Below, piece after piece: positions 13,509-17,599 of a stretch of DNA of 46,207 bases (the first letter of the stretch is position 1; every line of letters begins with the position of its first letter). The stretch spans positions 1-46,207 of the forward strand of contig CAIJPD010000062.1 in NCBI GenBank assembly GCA_903822495.1. The letters run 5' to 3'. Both the position numbers and the translations under genes were made by a program. The stretch comes from an uncultured Chloroflexota bacterium (GTDB taxonomy: Bacteria; Chloroflexota; Limnocylindria; Limnocylindrales; CSP1-4). The notes under the pieces were generated by a model. It was not told the DNA's origin. It was given only the letters and a program-made list of their open reading frames with translations, and searched no databases.

Positions 13509-13559
13509 GGGGATAGGGACATATGCGTATTGACCCTCGTCCGCGCTTCTTCCTAGAGT
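13509..13559 (+). promoter_or_regulatory. Promoter element of the micro-peptide/HD-GYP unit, similar to the Flp pilin promoter
   Basis: TTGACC (13530-13535) and TAGAGT (13554-13559) with an 18-base spacer make a plausible -35/-10 pair. The element also has GGGGATAGG (13509-13517) and GACATATGCG (13518-13527) upstream of the -35. The same ordered blocks occur before the Flp pilins at 45582-45631 (GGGGTTAGG, GACTATTGCG, CTGACC, CTTCCTAGAGT), suggesting the same regulator or sigma factor acts at both. Confidence 0.6.
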
Positions 13560-13669
13560 GACCCAGTCTTCCGGGCATCTACATGCCGTTGAAGACGAAA
13601 CAACGGACGCGCTGAAGCCGGACCTGAAATGGGCACTTAGGGTCTTGGCTGAGCGACTAGTGCAACCGA

Positions 13670-13688
13670 CCGACCCACGTCAGGTCGG
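13670..13688 (+). other. Hairpin upstream of the first micro-ORF
   Basis: CCGACC and GGTCGG pair across a 7-base loop and are followed by CTTTC. Lying in the presumed leader 38 bases before the first micro-ORF, it could be an attenuator or a stabilising 5' structure. Confidence 0.3.
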
Positions 13689-13726
13689 CTTTCGTGGTTT
13701 CACGGGAGCCACCAGGAGGAACGGGC

Positions 13727-13759
13727 ATGCGGCCGGATTCAAGCATCAAGGGCTTCTAG
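13727..13759 (+). CDS. Micro-ORF 1, 10 residues ending SIKGF
   Basis: ATG 13727 is preceded at six bases by AGGAGGA, a perfect Shine-Dalgarno sequence. The product would be MRPDSSIKGF. The last five residues are the same as those of the 29-residue micro-ORF that starts 18 bases after this stop, and both are encoded in the same frame by similar DNA (ATCAAGGG-STTCTAG). It may be a translational leader or a duplicated remnant of the peptide gene. It is far too short for homology-based support; the evidence is the ribosome binding site and the shared ending. Confidence 0.45.
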   Translation: MRPDSSIKGF

Positions 13760-13777
13760 GGCTCCGGGGAGACTCCG

Positions 13778-13867
13778 ATGAAGTCGCAACTCATGCGAAT
13801 CGCCACGGCCCTATGTACGGTCGCGGCGATAGCGCTCGCAGGTGGAGCATCGATCAAGGGGTTCTAG
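13778..13867 (+). CDS. Micro-ORF 2, 29-residue secreted-peptide-like precursor ending SIKGF
   Basis: ATG 13778 follows GGGGAG at six bases. The product starts MKSQLMRIATALCTVAA and ends IALAGGASIKGF. It has a charged N-terminus (K2, R7), a hydrophobic core (residues 8-21) and a small-residue segment ALAGGA that fits signal peptidase I, so export could release GGASIKGF or SIKGF. Its form resembles short signal-sequence-bearing pheromone precursors of Gram-positive bacteria, but I recognise no family. It lies between the BTAD regulator and a membrane HD-GYP protein in the lower-GC region. The identical C-terminal SIKGF in micro-ORF 1 argues against chance. A 10-bp hairpin follows 29 bases later. 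Function as a signal is inference. Confidence 0.55.
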   Translation: MKSQLMRIATALCTVAAIALAGGASIKGF

Positions 13868-13895
13868 GTACCCTAGTGCTAGTCCGACGCCTCTC

Positions 13896-13919
13896 GTTCG
13901 GAGGCAGTGGCCTCCGAAC
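13896..13919 (+). terminator. 10-bp hairpin between micro-ORF 2 and the HD-GYP gene
   Basis: GTTCGGAGGC and GCCTCCGAAC pair perfectly across an AGTG tetraloop. There is no U-run. It could end or attenuate the micro-peptide transcript, controlling how much reaches the HD-GYP gene, whose ATG lies 24 bases downstream. Confidence 0.5.
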
Positions 13920-13942
13920 CCGGTCGAATTAGTAGGGCACCA

Positions 13943-15325
13943 ATGCCTAGGTCGCTCAAGCTCTACATCATTGGGCTCGTGGCAGGAAGCGCGATAGCGC
14001 TTCTGGCCGCGAGCCTTGCCTTTTCCGTAAACCCTCGAATTGCCATCGAGGTCGACGGGGACCCAGGTTCGAGCGGAGCGGAACTGCTGCTCGGAGTGGG
14101 GTTCTGGACCCTTGTCGCACTACTGGCATCTGCGATGCCAGTACGAATGCCGCGGGGAATGATGGTCACCGTGTCCATCGCACCTCTCATCGCCGCAACA
14201 AGCCTCGGGGGACCTGCGGCAGGGGGCATCGTCGCTCTCATCGGAACTACTGAGATGAGAGAACTCCGAGGCAAGGTTCCTGCTCTCGGAACGCTCGCCA
14301 ATCATGCCGGCCTAGTGCTCTGTGCCATTGCGTGCGGCTTGGTGATCGAAGCCATCAACAGCCTCGGCCAAGGCTACCCGTTGGACTTCGGAGCGACCGT
14401 ACTTGGTGCGATGACCTATTTCTTCGTGAACCTGGCGATCGTCTCGGGCATTCTTGCCCTGCGGTATGGCGAGCGGTTTCAAGACCTGCTGGTGAGCGAT
14501 GCGCGTGGCTTCGGCGTGAGTCTGCTCGGCCTTTCGCCCGTGGCGTGGGTCATGGCGCGGATGTACGACCTCCCCAACGCCGGCTGGTGGACCACCCTCC
14601 TGTTCGCCCTCCCGCTGTACACCACCCGCGTGGCCTACCACCGGTTCGTGGAGATGCGCGACATGTTCACCCAGACCATCGGCGCCCTGGCCGAGGCCGT
14701 GGACAAGCGCGACCCGTTCACCAGCAAGCACAGCTGGCGCGTGAAGCAGATCGCCGTGGACATCGGGCGCGAGCTGCGCCTCTCACCGGATGACCTGGAA
14801 GCCCTGGAGTGGGGCGGCCTGCTCCACGACGTGGGCAAGATCGGCGTCCCGGACGCGGTCCTCCTGAAGCAGGACCGCCTGACGCGCGAGGAGCGGATCC
14901 TGATGAACGCCCACCCGGTGCTGGGCGCCCAGATCATCGCCCCCGTGGAGAAGCTGGCCCCCGAGCTTCCGATCATCCGCCACCATCACGAGTGGTACAA
15001 CGGCTCGGGCTATCCGGACCGCCTGGTGGGCGACGAGATCCCTCGGCTGGCGCGGATCCTCCACGTGGCGGATGCCTTCGAAGCCATGACGGCCGCCCGA
15101 CCGTACCGGATGACCCCCCTGACGGCCGAACAGGCGCTGGGCGAGCTCAGGAAGTTCGCCGGGGTCCAGTTCGACCCGGTGGTGGTGGACGCCTTCGTCA
15201 AGACGAGCTGGGCCGAGGACGTCCCGGATGCAGGACGCAAGATGGAGCCCAAGCCGATCCCGCTGATCGGCCAGGCGGCCGCGCGGATGGTGGACCAGCA
15301 GCCGGGTGATCCGAAGCCCAACTAG
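13943..15325 (+). CDS. Membrane-anchored HD-GYP phosphodiesterase-like protein
   Basis: The N-terminal half (residues 1-230) has about six hydrophobic helices and resembles a membrane sensor domain. The C-terminal half is an HD-GYP domain: KRDPFTSKHSWRVKQIAVDI, GGLLHDVGKIGVPD with the HD pair, HPVLGAQII, HHHEWYNGSGYPDRL with the GYP motif, and ILHVADAFEAMTAARPY. HD-GYP proteins hydrolyse cyclic di-GMP in the cytoplasm, and the metal ligands look intact. Total length 460. The ATG at 13943 is favoured; a GTG at 13907 is in frame but lies in a hairpin. Codon use changes sharply near 14520: upstream codons often end in A or T, downstream almost all end in G or C, suggesting a recombination joint inside the gene. 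It probably lowers c-di-GMP, linking to motility and pili. Confidence 0.9.
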   Translation: MPRSLKLYIIGLVAGSAIALLAASLAFSVNPRIAIEVDGDPGSSGAELLLGVGFWTLVALLASAMPVRMPRGMMVTVSIAPLIAATSLGGPAAGGIVALIGTTEMRELRGKVPALGTLANHAGLVLCAIACGLVIEAINSLGQGYPLDFGATVLGAMTYFFVNLAIVSGILALRYGERFQDLLVSDARGFGVSLLGLSPVAWVMARMYDLPNAGWWTTLLFALPLYTTRVAYHRFVEMRDMFTQTIGALAEAVDKRDPFTSKHSWRVKQIAVDIGRELRLSPDDLEALEWGGLLHDVGKIGVPDAVLLKQDRLTREERILMNAHPVLGAQIIAPVEKLAPELPIIRHHHEWYNGSGYPDRLVGDEIPRLARILHVADAFEAMTAARPYRMTPLTAEQALGELRKFAGVQFDPVVVDAFVKTSWAEDVPDAGRKMEPKPIPLIGQAAARMVDQQPGDPKPN

Positions 15326-15460: not shown

Positions 15461-17599
15461 GTGCTGATCGGCGGCATCATCGCGGGCCTGGCCCTGGGGC
15501 TCCTGGCCGGCGGTGACATCCTCAACCTCGCCCGCATCCGCCTGCGCTGGACCGCGCTGATCTTCGCGGCCCTGGCTGGCCGCTACGTGACCGAAGCGGC
15601 CCTCGCGGCCGGCATTGGCATCGTGGAGGCGCTGCGGCTCCCGCTCTACCTCTTCTTCTTCGGCCTCCTCCTCACCGGCCTGTGGGCGAACCGCCGCCAC
15701 CCGGGCATGACGCTCGCCTTCACGGGCATCGCCAGCAACACACTGGTCGTGCTCATCAACGGCGGCCACATGACGGTCTGGGCGTCGGCGCTGGCCGCGG
15801 CCGGATTCACGCCCGGCGACCTGGGCCCGGCCTTCCACGTGATCCTCCCCGCCCAGCTGGACGGCTCGTTCATCACGCGGCTGGGCTTCCTGGGCGACGT
15901 CATCCCGATCCCGCTGCCGTTCATCCGCAACGTGGTCTCGCTGGGCGACATCTTCCTGACATCGGGGCTGGCGCTCTTCCTGTTCGGCACGGTGCTGGGC
16001 CGGGGCCGCACGAACCAGGCGATCCGGGCAACGGTCTGGCGGCGCCGACGCCCATCCGGCAGCGGCCTGGCGGCGGGGCTGTCGGAGGCGTCCACGCTCG
16101 AGCGCTCGCTGGTCCTGGGGGCGGGGGCCTCGGGCTCGGCGGTCCCATCGCGCAGCCTGCCGGCCGGGCCAGGCGCGGCGCCTTCGGCTTCGGCCGGGCT
16201 TGGGGCCGGCGCGGCGGCCCCCGCGTTCCCCACGTTGGCGCAGATCAGCGAGCGCATCCGCGACCACCCGTACGTCAAGCTCAGCCTCAACAGCTCGTTC
16301 TCGGCGCTCTGGGCGGGCCAGCTGATCAGCCTCTTCGGTGACCGCGTCCACCAGGTGGCGCTCCTCTTCCTGGTGCTCCAGCTGACTGACTCGCCCATCG
16401 CGGTGGCGGCCGTCCTGGTGGTGACCACGCTGCCCAACCTCTTCCTGGGCCCCATCGCCGGTGCGTTCGTGGACCGCTGGGACGCCCGCGAGGTGATGAT
16501 CGTGAGCGACCTCCTGCGGGCCGCACTGGTCATGGCGATCCCGATCGCGGCGGTCACCAACCTGCTCCTGGTCTTCCCGCTGGTCTTCCTGGTGACGGCG
16601 ATCAGCATCTTCTTCCGACCCGCACGGGTCTCGGTGCTCACCCGGATCGTCGACGAGGACGACCTCCTGGCCGCCAACAGCGCGCTCTGGGTGGGCGAGA
16701 CGATCGCGGACATCGGCGGCTACCCGCTGGCGGGGCTGTTCGTCGCGTTTCTTGGCCGCTCGCTCCCGCTGGCGTTCTGGATCGACGGCGCGACGTACGC
16801 GGCCAGCGCGCTGCTGATCTTCTCGATCGTGGTCCGACCGCTGGTCCGGACCCTCTCCACGATGCGGAGCGCATCACGCGGTTCGGTCGATGCTGCCGGC
16901 CGCGACGGCGGGGCGGTCGAAGCCGGGCGGGTCGTCTCCCCCGAACATGGCGTCCCCGTCCCGGTCGATGCCCAACCCCGTCGGCGTTGGGCGGTCCTCG
17001 ACGAGGCGGAGGCCGGCTGGCAATTCCTGCGCGGCGAGACCGTGCTCCTCGCCAACACCATCCAGGCCGTCGTGGGCCAGGTGATGATCGGGATCGTCCT
17101 GACGCTGTTGCCGCTCTATGCGCGCGACACGATCAGCGGCGTGACGATGGGTCCCGAGGCGATCTACTCGTTCCTCGAGGCCGGGATCGGCGTGGGCAAC
17201 CTCTTCGGCGGGTTCGCCGTGGGCCTGATCGGCGCCCGGATGGGGCTGGGGCGAATGGTGATCGTGGGCTACATGATCACGGGAGCCCTGGTGGCGGCCA
17301 TGAGCCTGACGGGCAACCTGGGGTTGGCCCTGGGCCTGATCTTCGGGGTTGGGATTGGAAACCTGATCTTCGTGATTCCCAGCCAGACGCTCTTCCAGCA
17401 GCGGACCCCACCCGAGCTGATGGGCCGGGTCATCGGCCTGCGCTACTCGCTGACGTTTGGGGCGATGACGCTGGGGATCGCCCTCGCCGGGATCCTGGGC
17501 GAGGTGCTGGGGCCGGCGATGGTCATCGGGCTGTTTGGCCTGCTGACGTTCTGGTCAGGTGTCGCGGGGCTGATCTTCCCGGTTGTCCGGGACGCCTGA
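15461..17599 (+). CDS. DUF5317 domain fused to an MFS transporter
   Basis: Residues 1-185 form a five-helix membrane domain like DUF5317 (GGIIAGLALGLLAGGDILNL, ANRRHPGMTLAFTGIASNTL, VVLINGGHMTVW, ISLGDIFLTSG-type end). A polar Ala/Ser/Pro-rich linker (about 190-265) follows, then a 12-helix major facilitator domain beginning SSFSALWAGQLISLFGDRVH with PIAGAFVDRWDAREVMIVSD as the loop 2-3 motif, typical of MFS proteins formerly called enterobactin exporter-like. The MFS half contains a further polar loop around residues 470-510. Total length is 712. The GTG at 15461 begins just before the first helix; no clear ribosome binding site is visible. DUF5317 proteins are mostly stand-alone and uncharacterised, so the fusion is notable. 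Substrate unknown. Confidence 0.85.
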   Translation: MLIGGIIAGLALGLLAGGDILNLARIRLRWTALIFAALAGRYVTEAALAAGIGIVEALRLPLYLFFFGLLLTGLWANRRHPGMTLAFTGIASNTLVVLINGGHMTVWASALAAAGFTPGDLGPAFHVILPAQLDGSFITRLGFLGDVIPIPLPFIRNVVSLGDIFLTSGLALFLFGTVLGRGRTNQAIRATVWRRRRPSGSGLAAGLSEASTLERSLVLGAGASGSAVPSRSLPAGPGAAPSASAGLGAGAAAPAFPTLAQISERIRDHPYVKLSLNSSFSALWAGQLISLFGDRVHQVALLFLVLQLTDSPIAVAAVLVVTTLPNLFLGPIAGAFVDRWDAREVMIVSDLLRAALVMAIPIAAVTNLLLVFPLVFLVTAISIFFRPARVSVLTRIVDEDDLLAANSALWVGETIADIGGYPLAGLFVAFLGRSLPLAFWIDGATYAASALLIFSIVVRPLVRTLSTMRSASRGSVDAAGRDGGAVEAGRVVSPEHGVPVPVDAQPRRRWAVLDEAEAGWQFLRGETVLLANTIQAVVGQVMIGIVLTLLPLYARDTISGVTMGPEAIYSFLEAGIGVGNLFGGFAVGLIGARMGLGRMVIVGYMITGALVAAMSLTGNLGLALGLIFGVGIGNLIFVIPSQTLFQQRTPPELMGRVIGLRYSLTFGAMTLGIALAGILGEVLGPAMVIGLFGLLTFWSGVAGLIFPVVRDA

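Follow-up and report, generated by a model that had tools for sequence, protein, structure and literature searches.

Between a gene for a large BTAD-type regulator and one for an HD-GYP protein, a 46,207-nucleotide stretch of DNA from an uncultured Chloroflexota bacterium (the whole of which is called the window hereafter) carries two very small open reading frames that end alike. The locus raises the question of whether such ORFs are genes and, if so, what a pair of peptides with a common tail could be doing between these two proteins. The initial annotation, made from the sequence alone, had suggested a peptide-signalling module, and the two micro-ORFs, their ribosome-binding sites, their common frame, the 18-base gap between them and their SIKGF-TAG ends were all found as it described. 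At about 10 and 29 codons, they lie below the size that gene finders usually accept.

The explanation preferred in this study, tentatively but as a real possibility, is a c-di-GMP-gated peptide signalling loop in which the neighbouring regulator would act as the receptor. The features of the locus are collected in Table 1; the riboswitch, the promoter and the 5' hairpin are additions to the initial annotation.

Table 1. Features of the locus, in window coordinates.
Feature	Position	Strand	Description
TPR-STAND-SARP regulator, 1144 aa	10049..13483	+	MalT-like NTPase, TPR superhelix, C-terminal OmpR-type DNA-binding domain and BTAD
Promoter-like site CGTATTGAC	13526..13559	+	-35 TTGACC 13530-13535, 18-bp spacer, -10 TAGAGT 13554-13559
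5' hairpin GTCTTC...GAAGAC	13566..13596	+	Between promoter and aptamer; predicted fold -13.9 kcal/mol
c-di-GMP-II-class riboswitch aptamer	13596..13679	+	RF01786, 49.4 bits, E 8.3e-10, match 1-84, full-length
Hairpin A, aptamer 3' end ACCGACC with GGTCGG(C)	13665..13689	+	99.0% of cells paired in 36 aligned leaders
Hairpin B, GGCTTTCGTG with CACGGGAGCC	13687..13710	+	Overlaps the 3' arm of hairpin A
sORF1, leaderless peptide MRPDSSIKGF	13727..13759	+	ATG 13727, TAG ends 13759; Shine-Dalgarno AGGAGGA 13714-13720
sORF2, signal-like or single-TM peptide MKSQLMRIATALCTVAAIALA-GGASIKGF	13778..13867	+	ATG 13778, TAG ends 13867
HD-GYP protein with N-terminal membrane domain	13943..15325	+	Pfam HD_5 E 4.4e-40; MASE9 just under cut-off
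DUF5317-MFS fusion protein	15461..17599	+	Pfam DUF5317 and MFS_1; possible exporter

Organization and occurrence of the module

The module runs in the order regulator, promoter, riboswitch, short peptide (mostly 8-10 aa), long peptide (28-32 aa) and HD-GYP gene, and is repeated across two families of a single Chloroflexota class, which we take to be the Limnocylindria; the matches in the class are listed for families f1 and f5 only. Among the 58 riboswitch loci tabulated (18 of the 30 loci from a riboswitch search of relatives and 40 from a class-wide search), the long peptide was found at 51, in 49 genomes, and the short peptide was also present at 47 of these. A homologue of the window's regulator lies upstream at 49 of the 51 long-peptide loci and a homologue of its HD-GYP protein downstream at 50; of the three neighbours missed, two fall at contig ends and the third is at L077, which has no regulator match. 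This constant company, around two conserved coding micro-ORFs, supports the signalling loop. The next gene is a DUF5317-MFS homologue in 16 stretches long enough to show it.

Seven of the 58 loci have no tabulated sORF2. L029 retains the tail without an ATG or GTG start at the expected length, L061 has none because the locus stops at a contig end, and at L078, L083, L084, L088 and L091 neither a regulator nor an HD-GYP homologue was matched. A regular sORF1 is missing at four of the 51 long-peptide loci, which counts against the signalling loop: it is out of frame at L025, replaced by a repeat with N at L043, reduced to MIKSW at L085 and one residue longer at L087.

A DNA-level scan of 84,980 species genomes for the tail pattern AGGA[ST]xKG[FW]-stop, which is blind to KPY, RPF and other tails and whose genomes overlap those of the class-wide riboswitch search, returned 23 sites, of which 22 are this module. 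By record title these 22 are Chloroflexi or Chloroflexota and the other is Leisingera. The riboswitch core and an HD-GYP match accompany all 22 Chloroflexota sites, the regulator 21 and the short peptide 21. The Leisingera site, which has neither riboswitch core nor HD-GYP, regulator or short peptide, was set aside as chance, and that an unbiased scan should return the module and a single chance site argues for the signalling loop. Since the named relatives are Chloroflexi or Chloroflexota (22 of the 23 sites), the comparison with Firmicutes pheromones made in the initial annotation holds as an analogy only.

Two wider explanations of the tail were rejected. It is no general feature of c-di-GMP-II riboswitches, as 12 weaker loci and a second site in the window's own genome are without it, and none of the ORFs listed at 17 c-di-GMP-II loci elsewhere in the phylum carries it. 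Nor does it belong to the regulator family: three short ORFs passed the filter in nine regulator-paralogue stretches scanned and none was tailed, so that the proposed receptor family in general carries no such peptide, a point against the signalling loop.

The two micro-ORFs as genes

In the window, six bases separate AGGAGGA from the sORF1 start codon, and sORF2, whose full product is MKSQLMRIATALCTVAAIALAGGASIKGF, is preceded by GGGGAG and likewise six bases. The two SIKGF tails are written with different Ser codons (AGC and TCG) and differ at 4 of 18 bases, and are therefore not recent DNA copies of each other. Across loci the stop codons vary (TAG 30, TAA 13 and TGA 4 for sORF1; TAG 38, TAA 7 and TGA 6 for sORF2) and the lengths keep within narrow bounds, the long peptide having 29 aa at 40 loci, 32 aa at seven (all in family f5) and 28 aa at four, and the short peptide 10 aa at 35, 9 at nine, 8 at two and 6 at one.

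Loss of the tail or of the ORFs in relatives had been named as the outcome that would speak against the module; ORFs, frames and tail proved conserved in homologous loci. The comparison of synonymous and non-synonymous change, proposed at the same time, showed that both ORFs lean towards synonymous changes. For sORF2, 16 within-genus pairs gave 132 synonymous and 104 non-synonymous codon changes against 54.1 and 186.7 simulated (300 runs of random substitution, with a synonymous maximum of 75 and a non-synonymous minimum of 167). For sORF1, 14 pairs gave 23 and 43 against 12.6 and 60.2 (extremes 20 and 52), the pairs taken singly being too short for a visible synonymous bias. Both micro-ORFs thus evolve as coding sequence, and a chance or non-coding repeat is ruled out by the synonymous bias, the stop-codon variation and the kept frames.

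The long peptide is laid out as a K/R n-region, a hydrophobic core, A-x-A and an eight-residue tail. In the 50 tabulated rows (one shorter-tailed row omitted), counted from the C-terminus, position -9 is Ala, Gly or Ser in all 50, position -11 is Ala in 40 (genus g7 has IIG), and a small -9 residue is joined to A, V, G, S or T at -11 in 42. Gly-Gly occupies -8/-7 in 49, Ala -6 in 50, Lys or Arg -3 in 49, and Gly (38) or Pro (10) -2, while the last residue is Phe in 34, Trp in seven, Leu in six, Tyr in two and Val in one. The end of sORF2 can be read as a signal-peptidase site of the form A-x-A with GGA[S/T/G]x[K/R]G[F/W] after it, and the signal-peptide-like architecture with a cleavage-like segment noted at the outset is accordingly a conserved one; that the site is not universal (the Ala at -11 and the g7 sequence) weakens the signalling loop. 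All 35 short peptides of ten residues have Lys8 and an aromatic residue at position 10 (W 20, F 11, Y 4), and 31 of them have Pro at position 3.

The hydrophobic stretch of sORF2 might equally well anchor it in a membrane, and it is conceivable, though unlikely, that sORF2 is a membrane-resident single-TM regulator of the HD-GYP or MFS protein, with sORF1 as a cytosolic competitor for the tail site. Its uncharged core of 13-17 residues, the N-terminal K/R, the turn of small residues at GGA and the sORF2 versions without an AxA site would all suit such a protein, as would an HD-GYP gene within about 75 bases whose product has a membrane domain. In an AlphaFold2 single-chain model, with sORF2 linked ahead of the HD-GYP protein, sORF2 was left unplaced and unpacked (pLDDT 37-59), which speaks weakly against it given the linkers and the missing membrane; a free twin of 8-10 aa, too, is given no natural reason.

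Co-variation of the two tails

The tails of the two peptides co-vary locus by locus, modestly so outside one genus. Tails from the same locus have 2.15 of the last four residues identical, compared with 1.65 when the partners are shuffled (n=46); none of 20,000 shuffles was as high, which puts p at its floor of 5e-5. The effect is strongest in genus g13 (4.70 of 5 identical versus 3.56, n=10, p 1e-4) and persists without it (1.48 of 4 versus 1.24, n=29; p 0.006 by identity, 0.013 by BLOSUM). Shared ancestry inflates the excess. L023, with the tail SIRL, was omitted from the n=46 test, and its restoration (n=47) left the outcome unchanged. With one locus taken per genus (20 genera) the median p is only 0.036 (range 0.005-0.083) and the last residues are most often paired as W in sORF1 and F in sORF2 (19 of 46), both of which temper the support that the co-variation lends to the signalling loop.

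The last four residues are identical at 12 of 47 loci, as in TLKPY/TLKPY (G013), SLKGY/SLKGY (G118), TLKPF/TLKPF (G114) and SVKGW/SVKGW (G058). That one tail was recently copied onto the other was rejected as the cause, the codons differing at 11 of these 12; at L054 all 18 tail bases are identical and such copying is possible there. Two genomes carry two modules each. Those of G114 (L060 and L072) differ in their tails, KGY/KGF and KPF/KPF, which favours the signalling loop; those of G092 are L085 and L086.

These results also bear on the idea that the ORFs are leader peptides, otherwise functionless, in which ribosome pausing at K-G-F/W-stop couples translation to HD-GYP expression. The position of the ORFs between riboswitch and enzyme gene, their common pre-stop end and the strong Shine-Dalgarno sequence before sORF1 would fit, but purifying selection spans all 28-32 codons and not just the tail, the spacing between the ORFs ranges from 4 to 61 bases, and the tails shift jointly between related genomes (KPY/KPY, KGY/KGY, SVKGW/SVKGW), which a conserved ribosome would not require. 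We consider this idea decidedly unlikely.

Promoter, riboswitch and leader hairpins

The promoter-like sequence CGTATTGAC occurs once in the window, against 0.07 expected. GTATTGA(C), a spacer and a -10-like box were found at 36 of 39 family-f1 loci (the spacer being 18 at 34 of them and 17 at two), where the leaders run from the promoter-like site through a 5' hairpin to the aptamer; where the window has its 5' hairpin, other loci have one that differs in sequence. The strict pattern CGTATTGAC-N17..21-TAYAGT, which leaves out the window's own -10 TAGAGT, gave eight matches in 25 genomes, seven of them at the module and the eighth at another place in G004, and its reversed control gave none.

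Upstream of the -35 element, at 13511-13535, ATAGGGA and ATGCGTA stand about ten bases apart; most relatives have ATAGGTA, and by eye CGTATTGACC is conserved together with an upstream ATAGGTA-like box. The two boxes could form a candidate SARP-type direct-repeat operator. Between sORF2 and the HD-GYP gene (13868-13942) many f1 loci have GTACGTTGGTCC-like and TAGAGT-like boxes (by eye), perhaps a second promoter, in place of which the window has a strong GC-rich hairpin.

The aptamer of the window scores about 4 bits below the Rfam cut-off (49.4 versus 53.5) and a scan of the window at gathering level gave no match, so that on the window alone the call is borderline, a weakness of the signalling loop. 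Orthologous sites reach 73.8 bits. RF01786 sites above cut-off, wherever in the genome they lie, were found in 15 of 41 relatives and in 46 of the 177 class genomes. In the family relatives the riboswitch likewise lies directly behind the homologous regulator gene, and its core GGCACTT...GTGCAACCG is conserved in the alignment. Given the relatives' sites above cut-off and its E-value of 8.3e-10, the window's aptamer is taken as a divergent member. The riboswitch, present at the module in the window, in relatives and in the class, supports the signalling loop. The connection with c-di-GMP is thus firmer than the initial annotation had guessed, but it lies first of all in this riboswitch, which had been missed.

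Hairpin A is nearly invariant and therefore offers no evidence from covariation. In hairpin B (GGTTTTCGTG with CACGAAGGCC and variants) 97.8% of cells are paired and six are changed on both sides, a level of covariation matched by none of 500 shuffles; its 5' arm has seven versions and its longest helix is 10 bp in 37 of 38 leaders. A long-range pairing, P0, joins sequence 5' of the aptamer to the sORF1 start codon. Both halves are present in 29 of 40 leaders and neither in nine, with two discordant (one of them, L073, an extraction artefact with its 5' flank cut off); the Fisher value of 3.6e-7 is inflated because the sequences are related, and the pattern is one of co-loss only, with no compensatory change. 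P0 is missing from the leader of the window itself, whose minimum-energy fold has hairpin B and not A. We infer from these pairings an ON switch, in which the ligand would block A and P0 and favour B. The promoter at 36 of 39 loci and the covariation of hairpin B agree with the signalling loop, whereas the missing covariation of A, the uncompensated P0 and the window's leader without P0 or a folded A do not help it.

Family f5 (L064, L070, L077, L081, L082, L089 and L090) has the sORF1 Shine-Dalgarno sequence inside a conserved hairpin, AGAAGAGGGCACCTTCT, before the ATG, an expression platform unlike that of f1. Weak RF01786 matches are numerous in f1 genomes (14 of all strengths in G002), and several precede apparently secreted proteins. 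All six tested, L131 (G000:C63:178000-178085, minus strand), L044, L045, L078, L083 and L088, are of the c-di-GMP-II-GAG type (RF03169).

That the product is a small hydrophobic toxin-like peptide, or a RiPP precursor, appears highly improbable. KGW recalls the Lys-Trp cross-linked RaS-RiPPs, which would favour a RiPP, but a maturase-type gene was not found among the neighbours scanned. A conserved twin with a common tail is, to our knowledge, no feature of type I toxins. Such toxin genes are described near c-di-GMP riboswitches in Clostridioides difficile, which would favour a toxin, but in the accessible text of that report the riboswitch belongs to class I and stands before the antitoxin RNA rather than the toxin (PMC7699646).

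The regulator as candidate receptor

The regulator, which the initial annotation rightly saw as a TPR-containing ATPase-BTAD protein, combines a MalT-like STAND ATPase and TPR repeats with a DNA-binding/BTAD end that resembles AfsR. In Pfam, BTAD (1034-1139) scores over the cut-off, and AAA_16 and Trans_reg_C (932-987) fall just under it; in NCBIfam, MalT (197 bits, cut-off 537) and AfsR (33 bits) remain under their equivalog cut-offs. Profile comparison with the PDB returned MalT (8bob, E 4.5e-66), AfsR (8jke, E 1.4e-9 over 934-1138) and TPR proteins, and Foldseek with the AlphaFold2 model returned 8bob (3.2e-16) and 6mfv (4.9e-12). The P-loop NOD and TPR-like sensor of MalT-type STAND regulators are present, followed by an OmpR-type DNA-binding domain and then BTAD as in AfsR-type SARP regulators, and this make-up renders the protein a plausible peptide sensor and favours the signalling loop. 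RapH (3q15) matched weakly, at the level of the TPRs (E 0.0029). A receptor of the Rap, Rgg, NprR, PlcR, PrgX or AimR families was not found at the locus, the regulator being a STAND-TPR-SARP protein. With sORF1 linked behind the regulator in a single AlphaFold2 chain no docking was seen (pLDDT about 28), which counts, as weak evidence either way, against the signalling loop.

The HD-GYP protein and possible means of export

The HD-GYP protein is likely a c-di-GMP phosphodiesterase, as its motifs suggest: the HD and HHHEWYNGSGYP residues are largely invariant in 30 rows (H350 D351, H403 H404, G411 Y412 P413), and Foldseek matched the DvhD HD-GYP structure 9rbz. Its membrane domain (13943 to about 14700) has a fold like that of the ECF S-components TmRibU, BioY and ThiT, a weak likeness (target TM about 0.6, Foldseek E 0.011 and higher) which in the model suggests a small-ligand sensor.

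From this likeness and the adjoining genes it might be argued that the octapeptide binds the membrane domain from outside and sets c-di-GMP turnover without re-import. This appears quite unlikely, as ECF S-components bind small vitamins, the linked model of sORF2 and the HD-GYP protein showed no docking, and the cytosolic tail of sORF1 would be left unexplained.

Four Peptidase_S26 matches (three over cut-off) and seven SBP_bac_5 oligopeptide-binding proteins are encoded in the genome, which makes both release and uptake of a peptide possible and to that extent supports the signalling loop.

A proposed c-di-GMP-gated signalling loop

In the preferred signalling loop, c-di-GMP binding would engage the ACCGACC strand in the aptamer, so that hairpin A would be blocked and hairpin B could form, allowing expression of sORF1, sORF2 and the HD-GYP gene. 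The sORF2 product would be exported and cut after AxA to give the octapeptide GGAS[IL][KR]GF, which may re-enter through an oligopeptide transporter, and sORF1 would be the same tail kept inside the cell. The initial annotation had proposed that the peptide might be released as GGASIKGF or SIKGF and sensed either by the regulator or by the HD-GYP membrane domain. Here both peptides would be bound by the regulator's TPR superhelix; the SARP end of the protein would act on the operon promoter, and the HD-GYP enzyme would remove c-di-GMP and close the loop. A leaderless twin next to a leadered one is nevertheless odd for a secreted signal. The more specific proposal, of a riboswitch-gated pheromone system outside Bacillota, with a leaderless and an exported peptide that share a lineage-specific tail, by which a cell compares its own cytosolic peptide with that of its neighbours and resets c-di-GMP through the HD-GYP enzyme, is on the doubtful side.

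If true, the loop would put peptide signalling under a second-messenger riboswitch, connecting it with c-di-GMP in a new way, and MalT/AfsR-type STAND regulators would gain a genetically encoded peptide ligand. For Chloroflexota, the accessible text of the RRNPP survey names no system and contains no mention of Chloroflex (PMC10075063). Should the signalling model prove wrong, there would still be two coding genes, of some 10 and 29 codons, conserved in two families and tied to c-di-GMP control.

Comparison with known systems

Searches of the open-licence literature showed no described system of this make-up. The nearest likeness is to the RRNPPA systems of Bacillota (Rap-Phr, PlcR-PapR, Rgg-SHP, AimR-AimP), in which the gene of a large cytosolic TPR regulator is likewise closely followed by that of a short exported propeptide. 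Rules for detecting such receptor-peptide pairs have been set out (PMC10075063), and sORF2, with its predicted export signal, would be an adjacent short propeptide of the kind sought; tandem or multiple pheromones are also described (PMC11343458). Unlike in RRNPPA, a STAND ATPase with SARP output takes the regulator's place, in Chloroflexota, and the peptides, two in number and one of them leaderless, stand behind their own promoter and a c-di-GMP-class riboswitch. The module may therefore work like the RRNPPA pairs but is not a member, since the receptor family differs. For sORF1 a precedent exists in SIP-RopB of Streptococcus pyogenes, where a leaderless eight-residue signal is read by a TPR regulator (PMC6565748), although RopB is an Rgg protein with neither a leadered twin nor a riboswitch.

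AfsR of Streptomyces is, like the regulator, a SARP with NOD and TPR domains, and activates the promoter of a small-protein gene from a site that overlaps the -35 element (PMC10936776). Its SARP domain is N-terminal, whereas the DNA-binding/BTAD part is C-terminal here. The gene afsS adjoins afsR, but we know of no tail-sharing micropeptide pair in AfsS and of no c-di-GMP riboswitch at afsR-afsS. MalT, whose inducer is a sugar, resembles the regulator in its NOD and TPR sensor, by profile and by fold, and differs in its output domain. In the STAND/MalT type, as described, the NOD opens when an inducer binds to the TPR sensor (PMC6468293). With the c-di-GMP-II riboswitches (RF01786, RF03169), finally, the locus shares a full-length aptamer match, but here the aptamer stands before two micropeptides.
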